Shown: positions 29,672 to 50,952 of the stretch, piece after piece
Layout of the letters: each line of letters begins with the position of its first letter
Numbering within the stretch: position 1 is the first letter of the stretch
NCBI GenBank assembly: GCA_017516485.1
Contig: JAFXCH010000062.1
Span: 62,001 to 126,000 of the forward strand
Reading direction: 5' to 3'
From: Clostridia bacterium
Lineage (GTDB): Bacteria; Bacillota; Clostridia; Oscillospirales; Acutalibacteraceae
DNA: 64,000 nucleotides
Made by a program: the position numbers and the translations under genes
The notes under the pieces: generated by a model
Seen by the model: only the letters and a program-made list of their open reading frames with translations
What the model was told of the DNA's origin: nothing
Databases searched by the model: none

Positions 29672-30538
29672 ATGCAGTATGTAATATTTGACCTTGAATG
29701 GAATAATGTTTACGGCAGAAAAATAAATGGCTTTATTAATGAAATTATTGAAATTGGTGCCGTAAAGCTTGATGAAGACCTCAACGAAATTTCAACTTTT
29801 TCATGCTTTGTAAAGCCCAGTATCGGTAAAAAACTCCGTGGTAGTGTTAAAAAGCTGACTAATATTACAAATGACGATGTGCTCGGTGGTGAGCCGTTTA
29901 CACAGGCTTTTTCTGATTTTCGCAAATGGATAGGCTCACAGCCTACGCTTATACTTACATGGGGCGACGGCGATATACGTGTGCTTATTGAAAATTATAA
30001 GTATCTTAACGGTATTGCTTTTATTCCTTTTCTTACCGACTATGTTGATTTGCAGAGCTTTGTACAACGCCGTGTCAAAACCGAAAAAGGCCAGCAGATA
30101 GGCCTCGGAAAGGCTGCGGAGTCGCTCGGTATTGATGATACTACTTTTTCTCATCACCGTGCACTTGACGACAGTAAGCTCAGTGCAGAGTGCTTCAAAA
30201 AGGTGTTTGACTTTAACGAGCTTCAGAATTATATAAGACCGTGCGGTACAGACTTCTACGCAAAGCTTGCATTTAAACCTTACCCTATAAGCAACCTGAA
30301 AAACCCGCTTGTTGACAAAAAGCAGCTTGTTTACACATGCCCGGATTGCCGTGTGAATGCACAGCGACTAAAAGAGTGGAAGTATTCAAACCGATTTTTC
30401 CGTACTATTTTCAAGTGCCCTTATTGCGGAAATATGACTAAGGTTTCGGTAAGGTTTATGAAAATGTACGATAGAGTAGATGTTAAAAAAACTGCCATAC
30501 CGTATATTCCGCCTGAAGAAAATACGGAAACTGAATAA
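29672..30538 (+). CDS. DEDDh 3'-5' exonuclease with C-terminal zinc ribbon
   Basis: A DnaQ-like exonuclease of 288 residues. Catalytic acidic motifs are visible: ExoI IFDLEWN (residues 5-11), ExoII in TWGDGDIRVL and ExoIII HHRALDDSKLSAE, i.e. the DEDDh type. A C-terminal zinc ribbon (about 218-260; two CxxC pairs, CPDC and CPYC) may bind nucleic acid. It resembles the KapD/ERI-1-like branch rather than epsilon. It lies 27 bases after the WYL gene. Because PolC in this window lacks its exonuclease, a trans proofreading role is worth testing, but nothing in the sequence proves it. Confidence 0.87.
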   Translation: MQYVIFDLEWNNVYGRKINGFINEIIEIGAVKLDEDLNEISTFSCFVKPSIGKKLRGSVKKLTNITNDDVLGGEPFTQAFSDFRKWIGSQPTLILTWGDGDIRVLIENYKYLNGIAFIPFLTDYVDLQSFVQRRVKTEKGQQIGLGKAAESLGIDDTTFSHHRALDDSKLSAECFKKVFDFNELQNYIRPCGTDFYAKLAFKPYPISNLKNPLVDKKQLVYTCPDCRVNAQRLKEWKYSNRFFRTIFKCPYCGNMTKVSVRFMKMYDRVDVKKTAIPYIPPEENTETE

Positions 30539-43876: not shown

Positions 43877-45025
43877 ATGTCCGAGAAAATAATAACTTTA
43901 CTTGGTTCAACAGGTTCAATAGGTGAACAAGCACTCGATGTAGCCCGTATGCACGGTTACAGAATAAATGCTCTTACAGCTTCAAAGAATACAGATATAA
44001 TTGAAAAACAGGCTCGTGAATTTAAGCCTGTAAAGGTTGCCATGGCCGACGAAGCTGCTGCGGCTGACCTCAAAATAAAGCTCGCCGATACCGATATTAA
44101 AGTGCTTTCGGGCGTAGACGGTGTCAGCGAATGTGCTGCAGATAATTCTCAGGCGATTGTTCTCAACAGTATTGTCGGTATGGCAGGTCTTGTGCCTACT
44201 CTCAGTGCTGTTGATGCAGGGTGTAAAATAGCTCTTGCCAATAAAGAGACACTTGTTGCAGGCGGTCAGCTTGTAATGAACAGGGCTAAAGAAAAGGGTG
44301 TAGACATTCTTCCTGTTGATAGTGAGCATTCTGCAATCTTCCAGGCTTTGCAAGGCATGAATGACAAGAAAGAGCTTAAAAGGCTTATTCTTACCGCTTC
44401 CGGCGGTCCTTTCTTCGGTAAAACAAAGGCAGAACTTGCTGATGTTACCGTAGCTCAGGCATTAAAGCATCCTAACTGGAGTATGGGTGCAAAAATAACC
44501 ATCGACTCTGCTTCAATGATGAATAAGGGACTTGAGCTTATTGAGGCTGTCTGGCTTTTTGATGTTAATCCTAAAAATGTTGATATTGTTGTACATCGTC
44601 AGAGCATTGTTCATTCACTTATTGAGTTTGTCGATAATTCTGTAATTGCACAGCTTGGTGTGCCTGATATGCGTATACCGATTCAGTATGCACTGACTTA
44701 TCCTCAGCGTTTTGAGTCACCTGTAAAACAGCTCAGGCTCGAGGAATGGCAGACTTTAACTTTTGATAAACCTGATTATGATACATTTGAGTGTATTAAT
44801 CTTTGCAGAAGTGCAATTGAACAAGGCGGACTTTGTACCGCTGCAGTAAATTCGGCAAATGAGATGGCTAATGAGCTTTTCCGTGAAGGAAAAATCGGTT
44901 TTCTCGATATTGCCCGACTTGTATCAGGCGCACTTGATAATTGCAAGCGTGTTGATACATATTCTCTTAATGATGTGCTTGAGACGGATATATGGGCAAG
45001 AGAATATGTGAGGTTGAGTATCTGA
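43877..45025 (+). CDS. dxr: 1-deoxy-D-xylulose 5-phosphate reductoisomerase
   Basis: A 382-residue enzyme of the non-mevalonate (MEP) pathway, converting DXP to MEP with NADPH. Motifs: LLGSTGSIGEQALDV (NADPH), ANKETLVAGG, VDSEHSAIFQAL, ASGGPFFG, HPNWSMGAKITIDSASMMNKG. SD GAAAGGA. IspG from the same pathway is encoded two genes downstream. Confidence 0.97.
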   Translation: MSEKIITLLGSTGSIGEQALDVARMHGYRINALTASKNTDIIEKQAREFKPVKVAMADEAAAADLKIKLADTDIKVLSGVDGVSECAADNSQAIVLNSIVGMAGLVPTLSAVDAGCKIALANKETLVAGGQLVMNRAKEKGVDILPVDSEHSAIFQALQGMNDKKELKRLILTASGGPFFGKTKAELADVTVAQALKHPNWSMGAKITIDSASMMNKGLELIEAVWLFDVNPKNVDIVVHRQSIVHSLIEFVDNSVIAQLGVPDMRIPIQYALTYPQRFESPVKQLRLEEWQTLTFDKPDYDTFECINLCRSAIEQGGLCTAAVNSANEMANELFREGKIGFLDIARLVSGALDNCKRVDTYSLNDVLETDIWAREYVRLSI

Positions 45026-45058
45026 GGAGGAGTAGTTATTTTACTTTCTGTTAGTAGT

Positions 45059-46117
45059 TTGGCAACTGTTTGGAGTAAAGTGTGGCCGATAATACTTGCA
45101 ATTTTGTTTTTCGGATTTATTATTACAATACATGAACTTGGTCACTTTACTGTTGCACGTGTTTTCAAGGTTAAAATTAACGAATTTGCAATAGGTATGG
45201 GTCCGGCAATATTTAAGCGTAAGCGTAAAGAAACTCAGTATTCACTACGTGCTTTTCCTATCGGCGGTTTTGTCAGTATGGAGGGCGAAGATGAAGAAAG
45301 TGTTGATGAGCGTGCTTTCTGTAAAAAAGCTCCGTGGAAACGTTTTCTTATTGTTTGCGCAGGTGCCGTTATAAATATACTTTTGGGTACGGTTTTGTTG
45401 TCAATTGTTATATGTCAGCAAAATCTCGTCGGTACCACAACTATCCATTCTTTTAAAGAGGGCTCTCAGCTTGAAATTGATGGCTTGAAACCCGGCGACG
45501 AGATTTATAAGATTAATGACAGACTGGTTTTATCAGATATGGATTTGCCGTATCTTATGCATATGGATGATGACGGTGCGTTTGATATTACTGTCAAGCG
45601 TGACGGTAATAAGGTTGCACTGACCAATGTTCATTTTACAACGTTAGAAAAAGACGGTGTAAAACAGACTGTTAATGATATGACAATTGTCGGTGTTGAG
45701 AAAAATATACTGACGGTTACTTCCAATGCCTTTAAGCAGACAGTTTCTGTTGCAAGACTTGTTTGGATAAGTCTGGGCGATCTTATCAGCGGTAAATACG
45801 GGTTTAATGATATTTCAGGTCCCGTAGGTACAGTTGGTGTAATAGCCGATGTTGCAGAAGAGTCTTCAAAAATGACTGACTATTCGGCTCTGTTAAACAT
45901 TATGGCATTTATCACTATAAATATCGGTGTATTTAATCTTTTGCCTATACCGGCTCTTGACGGCGGCAGGCTGGTGTTTATAGTTTTTGAGATGATATTC
46001 CGTAAACCCGTTCCCGCAAAATACGAGAATTGGTTACACGGTGCAGTACTTGTTTTGCTGCTTTTATTTATGGTTGTTATAACATTCAGTGATGTATTGA
46101 AACTTATCAGGGGGTGA
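45059..46117 (+). CDS. rseP: RIP metalloprotease RseP (site-2 protease, M50)
   Basis: An intramembrane zinc protease of about 352 residues: HELGHF in the first helix, a PDZ domain (about 115-190; LEIDGLKPGDEIYKIND), GPVGTVGVI, and the third ligand motif LLPIPALDGGRLVF. It cleaves anti-sigma factors and signal-peptide remnants. Start is uncertain: TTG 45059 has no SD. A perfect GAGGAGG (45024-45030) precedes, at 7 bases, an ATT codon at 45038 in the same frame, so translation may begin there and add seven residues. Confidence 0.94.
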   Translation: MATVWSKVWPIILAILFFGFIITIHELGHFTVARVFKVKINEFAIGMGPAIFKRKRKETQYSLRAFPIGGFVSMEGEDEESVDERAFCKKAPWKRFLIVCAGAVINILLGTVLLSIVICQQNLVGTTTIHSFKEGSQLEIDGLKPGDEIYKINDRLVLSDMDLPYLMHMDDDGAFDITVKRDGNKVALTNVHFTTLEKDGVKQTVNDMTIVGVEKNILTVTSNAFKQTVSVARLVWISLGDLISGKYGFNDISGPVGTVGVIADVAEESSKMTDYSALLNIMAFITINIGVFNLLPIPALDGGRLVFIVFEMIFRKPVPAKYENWLHGAVLVLLLLFMVVITFSDVLKLIRG

Positions 46118-47175
46118 GTGCGTTGTTCGAAAGACGCGCAGCACGAAAAGTTAAAATCGGCGATATTTTTATCGGCGGTAATGAGCCGATAGCTGTACAG
46201 TCAATGCTCAATAAACGTTCTGATGATTTTGTCGGCAGTGTTGCACAGGCAAAAGAGCTGGAGGCTGCAGGTTGCGATATAATACGTGCCGCAGTGCCCG
46301 ATATGGCGGCGGTAAAGCTTATAAATGAGCTGAAAAACGCTGTTTCATTGCCGATAGTTGCCGATATTCATTTTGACTATCGACTTGCGTTAGAGTGTGT
46401 GGTTGCAGGTGTCGATAAAATACGCATAAATCCCGGTAATATAGGCTCTGAGGATAGAGTTAAAGCTGTTGCTGATGCTTGTGCCAATGCCGGTGTACCT
46501 ATCCGAATCGGAGTTAATTCAGGTTCGGTTGAAAAAGAGATACTGGCAAAATACGGTTCTCCCACACCCGAAGCTATGGCAGAAAGTGCTATGTATCATG
46601 CATCACTTCTCGAAAAGTTTGATTTTAATAATATTGTTATTTCTATAAAATCTTCAAATGTACAGAATACCGTTGCAGCTTATGAAACAGTTGCCGCTAT
46701 GTGTGATTATCCGCTTCACCTCGGTGTTACGGAAGCGGGTACAAAACATATGGGTATTATCAAATCTGCTGCCGGTATCGGTTCTCTTCTTGCTCACGGA
46801 ATAGGTGATACAATACGTGTTTCACTGACTGATGAGCCGGTTGAAGAAATTAAGGCAGGAATTGATATTCTTAAGGCTCTTAATCTCAGACAGAACTGTG
46901 TTGAGATAGTTTCCTGTCCGACTTGCGGAAGAACAAGAATAAATATGATTGAGATTGCAGGTAAGGTGACGGAGCTGCTTGCCGACTGTAAAAAGCCGCT
47001 TAAGGTTGCAGTTATGGGCTGTGCGGTAAACGGACCCGGTGAAGCCAGAGAAGCTGATATCGGTATTGCGGGCGGAGACGGATGCGGACTTATATTCAAA
47101 AAAGGTGAGATTATCCGCAAAGTCAGCGAAGATAAATTAGTTGAAGAATTAATGAATGAAATTGAAAAAATGTAA
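46114..47175 (+). CDS. ispG: (E)-4-hydroxy-3-methylbut-2-enyl-diphosphate synthase
   Basis: A 353-residue Fe-S enzyme of the MEP pathway, without the middle domain of plant forms. N-terminal barrel: PIAVQSMLNKRSDD, ADIHFDYRLAL, KIRINPGNIG; C-terminal 4Fe-4S ligands in SCPTCGRT and VMGCAVNGPGEA. GTG 46114 overlaps the rseP stop (GTGA); TTG 46123 is better placed after GGGGGTGA and may be the real start. In this operon it occupies the place taken by proS in Bacillus. Confidence 0.96.
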   Translation: MSALFERRAARKVKIGDIFIGGNEPIAVQSMLNKRSDDFVGSVAQAKELEAAGCDIIRAAVPDMAAVKLINELKNAVSLPIVADIHFDYRLALECVVAGVDKIRINPGNIGSEDRVKAVADACANAGVPIRIGVNSGSVEKEILAKYGSPTPEAMAESAMYHASLLEKFDFNNIVISIKSSNVQNTVAAYETVAAMCDYPLHLGVTEAGTKHMGIIKSAAGIGSLLAHGIGDTIRVSLTDEPVEEIKAGIDILKALNLRQNCVEIVSCPTCGRTRINMIEIAGKVTELLADCKKPLKVAVMGCAVNGPGEAREADIGIAGGDGCGLIFKKGEIIRKVSEDKLVEELMNEIEKM

Positions 47176-47220: not shown

Positions 47221-50200
47221 ATGACAGGCAGACAGTTGGCAGAGCTTTTTGTACCTCTTGTTGGGTCTGAACTATGCCGTGAATATTTGGAGTATGACAA
47301 TATTGAAATAAACATAAATACAGTTGAGCGTGTTCTTGTAATGGATGTGTTCGACGCACCTTATGATGCTCCGCGTAAAAAATTAATGGAGCAGGAGCTG
47401 TGTCAGGCATTAAAGCTTGAGCGTGCAATTATAAATATCAATCTTTTGCCTACACGCAATCAATGTGCTCAGCCAAATGCTGAAATAGATTTAGTACGTG
47501 TCAGTGAAGCCCTTGCACAGCGTATAATTCCTGCAAGTTGTTTTATGGCTGACGCAACAGCTGAGCTTGTCGGAAATAAATATACTCTTACTGTTTCATC
47601 GGCAGGTGAGGCAGTGCTTAAAAGTATGGGAGCAGAAAAAGAGCTTGTTTCTATAATCAGTGAGCTTTACGGTATTACAGTTACTGCAAAGATAGAAGCA
47701 CGCGAAGAGGCTAATAAGATTTCAATAGAAGAAATGCAGCGTCAAGAAGATGAAAAAACAGCTGCAAAGCAACCTGTTGAAATAAAAAAGATTATCAAAC
47801 CTACTTTTGAAGGTTTACCGATTTGCACCGAATATGCCAAAATTATTTACGGTGAAAAAATTCCTTCAAAACAGCCGATGAGGATTGCGGATATATCGCA
47901 GGAAAGCGGTACTGTTATAGTCTGGGGCGATGTCTTTTCACTTGAAATCCGTACAACAAAAGATCAGAGGAACAGAATTATTACGTTTAATTTCTCCGAT
48001 GATTCCGGTTCGTACTCTGCAAAGATTTTCGGTCCTGTGTCTGAGACAAATTATCTTACCGAAAACCTTAAAGACGGTATGACTGTTCTCTTGCGCGGTG
48101 TAGTTATGTATGATAAATATGCGCGCGAAAACACAATTGATGTAAGAGCAATTGCTCAGATTGATAAGGTTTCAAAAACCGATGATGCACCTGAAAAGCG
48201 TGTCGAGCTTCATCTTCATACCCGTATGTCTGCTATGGACGGTATGACCGATGTTAAGGACCTTGTAAAGCGTGCAATCAAGTGGGGACATAAAGCTATT
48301 GCAATTACCGACCACGGTGTTGTGCAGGCGTTTCCCGATGCTGTTAAGGCGGCAAAGGGTAGCGATATTAAGTTGATTTTTGGTATTGAAGGTTATCTTG
48401 TCAATGATGTTGACGGTGAAGAAAAGGATTATAAAAAATTAGCATCGTATCACATAATAATACTTGCTAAAAATAATACAGGTCTTAAGAACCTTTATAA
48501 GCTTATTTCTATGTCTAATCTCGAGTATTTTCACAAACGCCCGAGAATTCCCAAAAGTCAGCTTATAAAGCACAGAGAAGGTCTTATTATCGGCAGTGCT
48601 TGTGAAGCTGGTGAGCTTTTCAGGTCAATGCTTCACGGCGAGCCTGATGAAAAGCTGCTTCAGATAGCCTCATTCTATGATTATATTGAGATTCAGCCGC
48701 TCGGAAATAACGATTTCCTTGTAAGGTCTGAAGAGTTTCCGCATATTCAGAGCTATTCTGATCTTGAAAACCTTAACAGGAAGCTCATTCATATTGCGGA
48801 CAAGGTGTCAAAGCCTGTTGTTGCTACCTGCGACGTTCATTTTATTGACCCCGAAGACAGTGTTTTCAGAGCAATTCTTATGGCAGGTCAAGGCTTTAAA
48901 GATGCAGACCAGCAGGCACCGCTTTACTTCAGAACTACTGATGAAATGCTTGCCGAGTTTGCTTATCTCGGTGAAGATACCGCAAGAGAAGTAGTTATAA
49001 CAAATACTAATAAAATTGCTGATGCAATTGACAGAATTATACCTATCCCCAACGGAAACTTCCCGCCTGATATTCCCGGTTCGGAAGAAGAGTTAACCAG
49101 AATCTGCTGGGAAAGAGCTAAAAATATGTTTGGTGACCCTGTGCCCGAATATGTTGCTCAGCGACTTGAAAAAGAGCTTACGTCAATTATCAAAAACGGT
49201 TTCGCAGTTCTTTATATGATTGCACAGAAGCTTGTTAAAAACTCTGAGGATAACGGCTATTATGTCGGTTCCCGAGGTTCAGTCGGTTCATCTTTTGTTG
49301 CGTCTATGGCAGGTATTTCCGAGGTTATGCCGCTTGCTCCTTTCTATCTTTGTAAGAAGTGTAAACACAGTGAATTTTTCCTCAAAGGTGAAGTGGGTTC
49401 AGGTTTTGACCTTCCGCCCAAGAACTGTCCGGTATGCGGCGAGCCGATGATTCGTGACGGTCACGATATTCCTTTTGAAACTTTCCTTGGTTTCAAGGGC
49501 GATAAATCTCCCGATATTGACCTTAACTTTTCAGGCGAATATCAGTTCTATGCTCACCGTTATACAGAAGAACTTTTCGGCAAAACGCACGTTTTCAAAG
49601 CAGGTACTGTTTCGACAGTTGCCGATAAAACAGCTTTTGGTTTTGTTAAAAAGTATTTTGAAGCAAAAGGTGTGTCAGTTCATAATGCTGAGCTTGACAG
49701 ACTTTGCAAAGGTTGCACAGGCATCAAGCGTACTACAGGTCAGCATCCCGGCGGTATGGTTATTGTTCCAAACAGATATGAAGCTGAAGATTTCACTGCT
49801 GTTCAACATCCTGCGGATGATGTTGATGCAGCATCTATCACAACTCACTTTGACTTCCATGCATTGCATGATACTATTCTTAAGCTTGATAATCTCGGCC
49901 ATGATGTTCCTACGCTTTATAAATACCTTGAAGATTTTACAGGCGTTTCTGTTCTTGATGCCGATGTTTGCGATAAAGAGCTTTACAGAATGATTGTCAG
50001 TCCGGAACCTCTTGGCGTAACTGCTGAAGATATCGACTGCGAAACCGGTACACTTTCTATTCCTGAAATGGGTACGGCATTTGTACGTCAGATGCTTCTT
50101 GAAGCACAGCCTAAGGGCTTTGCTGACCTTCTGCAGATTTCGGGTCTTTCGCATGGTACTGATGTTTGGCTCGGTAATGCTCAGGAACTTATTCATAACG

Positions 50201-50952
50201 GCACTTGTACAATTTCCGATGTTATCGGTACGCGTGATAATATTATGGTTTACCTTATGCACAAGGGTCTCGAGCCTGATATGTCATTTAAAATAATGGA
50301 AATTGTCCGTAAAGGTAACGCTACAAAGCTTCTCACTCCTGAGCATATGGCAGAGATGAGAAAACATAATGTTCCGGAATGGTACATTGATTCGTGTATG
50401 AAAATCAAGTACATGTTCCCGAAAGCTCATGCTGCGGCATATGTTATTGCTGCTTTGCGTCTTGGATGGTATAAGATTTACCATAAGGTTGCTTATTATG
50501 CGGCTTACCTCACTGTGCGAGGTGGCGACCTTACTGCGCCTTTGATTATGTCAACAATAGAGCAGGTGCGACGCAAAATGAGAGAGATAACGGACAAGGG
50601 AAAGGAAGCTACACCAAAGGAGCTTTCACAGTTTACTGCACTTCAGGTTTTGCTTGAGATGAAGGCAAGAGGTGTTGAATTCCTTCCGGTTGACCTATAT
50701 AAATCAGATGCTACGGTGTTTAAGATTGAAGACGGTAAAATCCGCCTTGCATTCTCATCACTCAACGGCACAGGAGAAAATGCTGCCAAATCGATCGCTG
50801 CGGCACGCGATGACGGTGAAGGCGAGTTTATGTGTGTTGATGAGCTTCAACGCCGTGCAGGTATTTCAAGCAGTGTTATTGCGGCACTTCGTGAAGCAGG
50901 TGCACTCGAAGGATTACCTGACAGTATGCAGATAAGTTTATTTGATTTTTAA
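47221..50952 (+). CDS. polC: DNA polymerase III PolC-type alpha subunit lacking the exonuclease domain
   Basis: Replicative polymerase of 1243 residues. N-terminal domain (1-215), OB fold (about 215-320; ISQESGTVIVWGDVF), PHP domain (from 327, RVELHLHTRMSAMDG), zinc-finger cysteines (CKKCKH, CPVCG), catalytic Asp765/Asp767 (PDIDLNFS) and Asp890 (ILKLDNLGHD), fingers and C-terminal HhH region. In Bacillus PolC (1437 residues) a DEDDh exonuclease interrupts the PHP domain after GLEANIVDD. Here the matching GIEGYLVND (388-396) runs within about 15 residues into YHIIILAKNNTGLKNL; no exonuclease motifs occur. All other domains align well, so the loss is clean. No strong SD. Confidence 0.95.
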   Translation: MTGRQLAELFVPLVGSELCREYLEYDNIEININTVERVLVMDVFDAPYDAPRKKLMEQELCQALKLERAIININLLPTRNQCAQPNAEIDLVRVSEALAQRIIPASCFMADATAELVGNKYTLTVSSAGEAVLKSMGAEKELVSIISELYGITVTAKIEAREEANKISIEEMQRQEDEKTAAKQPVEIKKIIKPTFEGLPICTEYAKIIYGEKIPSKQPMRIADISQESGTVIVWGDVFSLEIRTTKDQRNRIITFNFSDDSGSYSAKIFGPVSETNYLTENLKDGMTVLLRGVVMYDKYARENTIDVRAIAQIDKVSKTDDAPEKRVELHLHTRMSAMDGMTDVKDLVKRAIKWGHKAIAITDHGVVQAFPDAVKAAKGSDIKLIFGIEGYLVNDVDGEEKDYKKLASYHIIILAKNNTGLKNLYKLISMSNLEYFHKRPRIPKSQLIKHREGLIIGSACEAGELFRSMLHGEPDEKLLQIASFYDYIEIQPLGNNDFLVRSEEFPHIQSYSDLENLNRKLIHIADKVSKPVVATCDVHFIDPEDSVFRAILMAGQGFKDADQQAPLYFRTTDEMLAEFAYLGEDTAREVVITNTNKIADAIDRIIPIPNGNFPPDIPGSEEELTRICWERAKNMFGDPVPEYVAQRLEKELTSIIKNGFAVLYMIAQKLVKNSEDNGYYVGSRGSVGSSFVASMAGISEVMPLAPFYLCKKCKHSEFFLKGEVGSGFDLPPKNCPVCGEPMIRDGHDIPFETFLGFKGDKSPDIDLNFSGEYQFYAHRYTEELFGKTHVFKAGTVSTVADKTAFGFVKKYFEAKGVSVHNAELDRLCKGCTGIKRTTGQHPGGMVIVPNRYEAEDFTAVQHPADDVDAASITTHFDFHALHDTILKLDNLGHDVPTLYKYLEDFTGVSVLDADVCDKELYRMIVSPEPLGVTAEDIDCETGTLSIPEMGTAFVRQMLLEAQPKGFADLLQISGLSHGTDVWLGNAQELIHNGTCTISDVIGTRDNIMVYLMHKGLEPDMSFKIMEIVRKGNATKLLTPEHMAEMRKHNVPEWYIDSCMKIKYMFPKAHAAAYVIAALRLGWYKIYHKVAYYAAYLTVRGGDLTAPLIMSTIEQVRRKMREITDKGKEATPKELSQFTALQVLLEMKARGVEFLPVDLYKSDATVFKIEDGKIRLAFSSLNGTGENAAKSIAAARDDGEGEFMCVDELQRRAGISSSVIAALREAGALEGLPDSMQISLFDF

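Follow-up and report, generated by a model that had tools for sequence, protein, structure and literature searches.

The polC gene of a member of the Acutalibacteraceae (Clostridia; assembly GCA_017516485.1) appears to encode a replicative polymerase that has lost its built-in DEDDh exonuclease (Exo), which raises the question of whether, and by what means, such an enzyme is proofread. The gene lies in a window of 64,000 nucleotides (contig JAFXCH010000062.1, positions 62,001 to 126,000), the whole stretch of DNA analysed here, to which all coordinates refer (Table 1). The genes just before polC (43877-47175), which we take to be dxr, rseP and ispG, presumably resemble the Bacillus neighbourhood. 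In the NCBIfam profile search, the protein scores 1463 bits against NF001688 (cut-off 873) and 1340 bits against TIGR01405 (cut-off 1043.45), and Pfam recognises PHP (residues 329-484), DNA_pol3_alpha, finger and HHH_6, with OB below threshold. The domain order is that of PolC, i.e., a putative N-domain outside the profile matches, OB (counting its sub-cut-off match) before PHP, then Pol, HHH and the C-terminal clamp motif. Asp765, Asp767 and Asp890, named in the original prediction as the polymerase active site, are invariant across a nine-row PolC alignment and presumably catalytic, and the four-cysteine motif is assumed to be a zinc motif. Among solved structures, the best match by sequence is Geobacillus kaustophilus PolC (3f2b), which aligns over residues 218-1242; both this protein and Enterococcus faecium PolC (9qpc) share fold and domain order with the window PolC. 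Unlike the latter, however, the natural enzymes of these two species carry Exo, which was removed by design for the crystallisation of 3f2b (PMC12592400). The motif QISLF at the C-terminus fits the clamp motif form QxxLF (PMC3919608).

Table 1. Coordinates of polC, of its parts and of the stand-alone exonuclease gene in the window
Feature	Position	Strand	Residues and remarks	Basis
polC, exo-less PolC-type DNA polymerase III alpha subunit	47221..50952	+	1243 aa	NF001688, TIGR01405
OB domain	47872..48174	+	~218-318	sub-cut-off Pfam match 244-301; alignment to 3f2b
PHP, first part	48199..48390	+	327-390; ligands H331, H333, D340, H365, E390	
20-residue loop at the DEDDh insertion site of other PolCs	48391..48450	+	391-410	
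PHP, second part	48451..48915	+	411-565; ligands H411, C461, D538, H540	
D538 codon	48832..48834	+	eighth PHP ligand; Asn in G. kaustophilus and E. faecium PolC	
Polymerase core with fingers	49090..50640	+	Asp765, Asp767, Asp890	Pfam, structure-sequence alignment, 9-row alignment
Four-cysteine motif	49351..49437	+	C711, C714, C736, C739	invariant alignment columns
Tandem helix-hairpin-helix (HHH_6)	50671..50916	+		Pfam
C-terminal clamp-binding motif QISLF	50929..50943	+	1237-1241	sequence reading
Stand-alone KapD-like DEDDh exonuclease	29672..30538	+	288 aa	sole RNase_T match (E <= 0.001) in genome

Where PolC carries Exo, the latter is inserted into a PHP loop that measures 18 residues in Taq (PMC5636811). 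In the window PolC, the sequence GYLVNDVDGEEKDYKKLASY makes up the entire stretch between the PHP ligands E390 and H411: 20 residues, compared with 211-214 in 31 family PolCs that have Exo and 211-219 over all exo-bearing relatives compared. Some 190-200 residues are thus missing, the upper end of the 170-200 originally proposed, and exo-less junctions range from 12 to 57 residues across the PolCs compared. Near the start of the insert, the exo-bearing family relatives carry a DxETTG-type DEDDh motif. No RNase_T match is found by Pfam in the window PolC; on it, the best-matching regions of the profiles NF001688 and TIGR01405 start at profile positions 605 and 370, and the DEDDh-matching parts of these profiles (424-585 and 190-351) lie before those starts. 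E. faecium PolC aligns to it as two pieces flanking its Exo. Pfam, profile ranges and family alignment therefore all confirm a PolC without internal exonuclease.

That this absence reflects an assembly error or a pseudogene could be suspected from the state of the assembly, which comprises 65 contigs, is 90.7% complete and contains no DnaE match. Yet the polC frame is intact, and the junction measures 20-22 residues in all 11 genomes of the genus, whose PolC frames are 1243-1272 aa long in eight cases and shorter in three. The exo-less architecture also recurs beyond the genus, both in genomes assembled as one contig (e.g., G377, G378 and G412) and in the records entitled Moorella thermoacetica DSM 21394, Desulfosporosinus fructosivorans 63.6F and Cuneatibacter sp. 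NSJ-177. In the record set that includes M. thermoacetica (80 loci, with two lacking a frame, two cut and two having inserts of 212-213 residues left unclassified), 27 of the 78 loci analysed are exo-less. Compared with the closest congener, polC has a dN/dS of 0.025 as a whole and of 0.025 in the PHP part, rough values with dS near or above 1; against four congeners dN/dS ranges over 0.025-0.086 for PolC, 0.025-0.067 for PHP and 0.008-0.039 for the polymerase part, ratios that are again rough because dS lies at 0.8-2.6. An artefact is in consequence barely conceivable, and the claim of a clean domain loss stands on the open frame, the low dN/dS and the shared junction. A search of the same assembly for a second, full-length polC found none, the gene being present once.

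The window PolC is a correctly observed case of a known variant, the exo-less PolC of Timinskas et al. (2013, PMC3919608), in which the Exo insertion is likewise missing from PHP and which occurs in a lineage with DnaE1. How widespread it is, on which the original prediction could say nothing definite, had therefore been addressed in print: the 2013 survey gives 6% of PolCs and 16% of those in PolC+DnaE1 systems, from Clostridia and Negativicutes (PMC3919608), while PMC3774996 treats PolC as exo-bearing. The variant is commoner in our phylum sample than the 2013 figures state. PolC matches were obtained in 131 of 150 genomes of the family, comprising 86 exo-bearing, 42 exo-less, two vestigial and one undecidable, and in 113 of 149 genomes of the phylum, the other 36 having none at E <= 1e-100. 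Exo-less PolC is found in the majority of these PolC-bearing phylum genomes (64/113, the window's included), the remainder being 46 exo-bearing (one in two pieces), one vestigial and two cut by contig ends. Exo status in both samples was called by frame length and matched range, for G032, G105 and G131 among the 42 exo-less family genomes by matched range alone (in G032, a contig end truncates the locus immediately upstream), and the sequences themselves were examined for 40 of the 64 exo-less or vestigial phylum-sample PolCs outside the window's genome. Both samples were drawn evenly over groups, so the figures are proportions of lineages, not of known isolates. The protein itself is no different from that of Timinskas et al. 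(PMC3919608); what is new is the scale of its occurrence, its recurrence through repeated changes of state, decayed intermediates, and near-complete genomes without any RNase_T-type exonuclease.

Repeated change of Exo status is apparent at every level of sampling. With the insert left out, a tree of 80 family PolCs requires seven changes between the exo and non-exo states, at least five of them forced by well supported branches; the corresponding figures are nine and at least seven in a class tree of 129 rows, and 15 and at least 12 in a phylum tree of 199 rows. These are quick gene trees built under one model, with some long branches and no outside root; their exo-bearing rows are mostly the 30 top-scoring loci of each search and were not drawn at random, and one cut locus (L164) was omitted. 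A model with a single gain of Exo implies 20 losses on the 199-row tree, or 15 and 13 once branches under 80 and 95, respectively, are collapsed, a count rooted on the four rows with Asn in the PHP motif, the PolC set containing no outgroup from outside. That the non-exo PolCs form one clade was rejected for the family (p-AU 7.75e-5).

The direction of change is indicated by the history of the Exo domain itself. Over the 91 exo-bearing rows, Exo distances and core distances are correlated (Pearson 0.83, Spearman 0.64; none of 500 permutations as high), and for 78 rows, though not for the other 13, the closest neighbour by core ranks among the five closest by Exo. Within this set there is no pair in which Exo domains more than 75% identical sit on cores less than 60% identical. 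Such agreement indicates that Exo and the PolC carrying it have mostly shared one history, which makes losses likelier than gains and, on trees that have no outside root, disfavours an exo-less ancestral state. In addition, seven PolC rows carry an insert that lacks the DxE motif, with lengths of 181 (L101), 185 (L102), 161 (L173), 150 (L180), 347 (L181), 327 (L182) and 198 residues (L339); the full PHP motif is retained in all seven. L101 and L102, from one genus of the window's family, match a profile of true Exo inserts with 65 and 53 bits, and their best identities to any Exo are 27% and 32%, whereas their cores share 75% and 79% identity with the closest exo-bearing PolC; L339 gives 30% and 63% in the same comparisons. 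The inserts of L173, L180, L181 and L182 reach at most 3.3 bits against this profile, so that their derivation from Exo would follow from position. In L181 and L182 (family code f40), whose PolC frames are 1705 and 1651 aa long, the non-exonuclease-like insert is a possible new domain. The congruence, the scattering of non-exo rows over more than one clade and the decayed inserts together favour loss over ancestral absence. According to a 2026 survey, the proofreader that has been inactivated in Pol III alpha subunits is PHP, not DnaQ (PMC12926913); the exo-less PolC findings temper this statement, to which the seven motif-less inserts look like counter-examples.

What, then, could proofread the remaining enzyme? 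The original prediction had left two choices, proofreading in trans or replication at lower fidelity, a dilemma that is not supported because the nine-residue metal site of PHP is intact in the same polypeptide. The residues HHDHEHCDH are complete in the window PolC and agree with the nine-ligand motif HHDHEH[C/H]DH defined in PMC12926913. Around D538 the window PolC reads VVATCDVHF, where the PolCs of G. kaustophilus and E. faecium have VVATGNVHY. Every one of the 108 non-exo rows in the 199-row phylum set has the complete motif, as do 87 of the 91 exo-bearing rows, the other four having Asn at position 8; these four rows with a broken PHP site, from three families only, have all kept Exo. 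Given those 87 exo-bearing rows, an intact site is no peculiarity of exo-less PolC and may have been kept for structural reasons.

The closest functional parallel is M. tuberculosis DnaE1 (5lew, 7pu7), likewise a C-family replicase with a nine-ligand PHP site and without the DEDDh insertion, in which that site is the proofreading exonuclease and the substitution D226N abolishes its activity (PMC5636811). By order in the motif, D538 of the window PolC would be the counterpart of D226. G. kaustophilus PolC, in which one PHP ligand is changed, is said to be without PHP-exonuclease activity (PMC5636811), and for Sporomusa ovata PolC1, whose PHP domain has all metal ligands, proofreading has been suggested by its authors (PMC4632017). 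The parallel has its limits: M. tuberculosis DnaE1 is of the DnaE type, with another domain order and a measured exonuclease, whereas a PHP activity of exo-less PolC is hypothetical. Nonetheless, proofreading by PHP in cis is a third option that, as judged from the sequence comparisons, would be preferred over the two original ones.

A separate DEDDh exonuclease acting in trans might be sought in the KapD-like protein of the window, whose best NCBIfam match is KapD with a sub-cut-off score of 89 bits (cut-off 169). It is the only RNase_T match of the genome, and it recurs in three of four congeners tested (G001, G007 and G003, with 82-95% identity to the protein of the window's genome, G000); moreover, 31 of the 42 exo-less family genomes have at least one RNase_T match (E <= 0.001). 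However, a direct search did not find it in the congener G010, which is 99% complete and has an exo-less PolC, nor was it found in nine of ten further exo-less genomes tested, the tenth (G101) giving a match of only 51 residues (E 0.005); a role as general Exo replacement was rejected. Stand-alone RNase_T proteins also accompany exo-bearing PolCs: among the matches listed, 78 of 86 exo-bearing family genomes have two or more and eight have one, so their presence is not tied to Exo loss. The search for separate exonucleases covered the RNase_T family, and at E <= 0.001 it gave no match in 11 of the 42 exo-less family genomes, nine of which are at least 93% complete (G010, G125, G140, G055, G050, G102, G095, G101 and G137). 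Proofreading in trans thus seems improbable. We would place slightly lower still the idea of a replicase without any proofreading, whose errors are tolerated or left to mismatch repair. It would suit the retention of MutS, matched in 37 of the 38 exo-less or vestigial genomes searched, and the small size, only ~1.0-1.4 Mb, of several exo-less genomes that have no RNase_T match, but the preservation of all nine ligands in every non-exo row would then be unexpected, unless they serve a structural purpose. Nor does Exo loss go together with a loss of mismatch repair, MutS being matched in 65 of 66 genomes, the window's included. The one genome without a match, G095 (1.0 Mb, 96% complete), has an exo-less PolC and no RNase_T match and is a candidate natural mutator.

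A more serious competitor, though still an unlikely one, follows from the question raised by Timinskas et al. of whether DnaE1 normally replicates DNA in exo-less PolC systems (PMC3919608). DnaE1 would then be the main replicase, proofread by its own PHP, and PolC synthesis would be so limited that Exo became dispensable. The DnaE1 of PolC+DnaE1 systems looks like a replicase that could work on its own, and there are clostridia with DnaE1 only (PMC3919608). In our phylum sample, 36 of 149 genomes gave no PolC match at E <= 1e-100. Of 40 exo-less or vestigial genomes searched, 38 have DnaE1, the exceptions being G000 and G050 (93% complete), and the PHP site is complete in each of the 38 DnaE1 proteins examined (28 from the 40 searched genomes and 10 from congeners, two of the congeners being also among the 40). 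DnaE1 is found in each of the ten remaining genomes of the genus, so the lack of a DnaE match in the window's assembly is taken to be an assembly gap, and replication by PolC alone, an arrangement that would be exceptional, was dropped as an explanation for this organism. A DNA probe taken from the dnaE block of the closest congener, where the neighbours look to us like murB, whiA and pfkA, found nothing in G000, a search that had no positive control and carries little weight. What speaks against a leading role of DnaE1 is purifying selection on the polymerase and PHP parts of PolC (dN/dS 0.008-0.067, rough since dS is high), which suggests a heavy-duty enzyme; a leading DnaE1 would also leave the perfect PHP site of exo-less PolC unexplained.

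The reading in which PolC proofreads itself through PHP is therefore preferred. The window encodes a genuine PolC, and we consider it probable that its DEDDh domain, normally inserted in the PHP loop, was lost in an ancestor of the genus or earlier, and that proofreading occurs in cis through a Zn-dependent PHP exonuclease, as in M. tuberculosis DnaE1. Mismatch repair, with MutS present, would be the remaining backstop. Clostridial replisomes have been described as typically equipped at the outset with redundant proofreaders, namely PHP in PolC, PHP in DnaE1 and DEDDh in PolC (PMC12926913); such redundancy could have made the DEDDh copy dispensable and would account for its being apparently lost many times. 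On the larger scale, we lean towards a dozen or more Exo losses within Clostridia sensu lato, some of them passing through catalytic decay before excision, after which nothing replaces Exo, PolC reverts to its cis PHP and some bacteria are left without any DnaQ-type exonuclease. If this is true, exo-less PolC is the commoner form across families of the phylum and not a 6% oddity.

Among titles and the beginnings of abstracts, with most subscription journals outside this scope, no paper was found on repeated loss of Exo from PolC or on a measured exonuclease of any exo-less PolC. The changes of Exo status numbering at least 12, the exo-less majority, the seven motif-less inserts, the intact PHP motif in all non-exo rows and the nine near-complete exo-less genomes without RNase_T match were likewise not found in print. 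The natural removals of Exo, some with exo-bearing close relatives, offer paired replicases for testing PHP proofreading in PolC. They also advise caution in transferring work on the PolC of Bacilli to clostridia, in which the enzyme is often built differently.

Some further loci were observed in the relatives. The dnaE1 gene of an exo-less relative (L340, G148:C24:19800-27000) is split by an insert of ~3.4 kb containing stops; it was at first taken for an intein, wrongly, since both ends of the insert give group II intron matches (RF02004 and RF00029, Rfam). Two loci encode second, short PolC-like proteins of 841 and 771 aa (L104:969-3494 and L341:730-3045, both on the minus strand), which have PHP and polymerase matches but carry no Exo. 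Visual inspection shows a decayed PHP motif in the former and loss of the catalytic DxD in the latter; both are possible pseudo-enzymes, and a frame similar to these short proteins is present in a further genome, G291.
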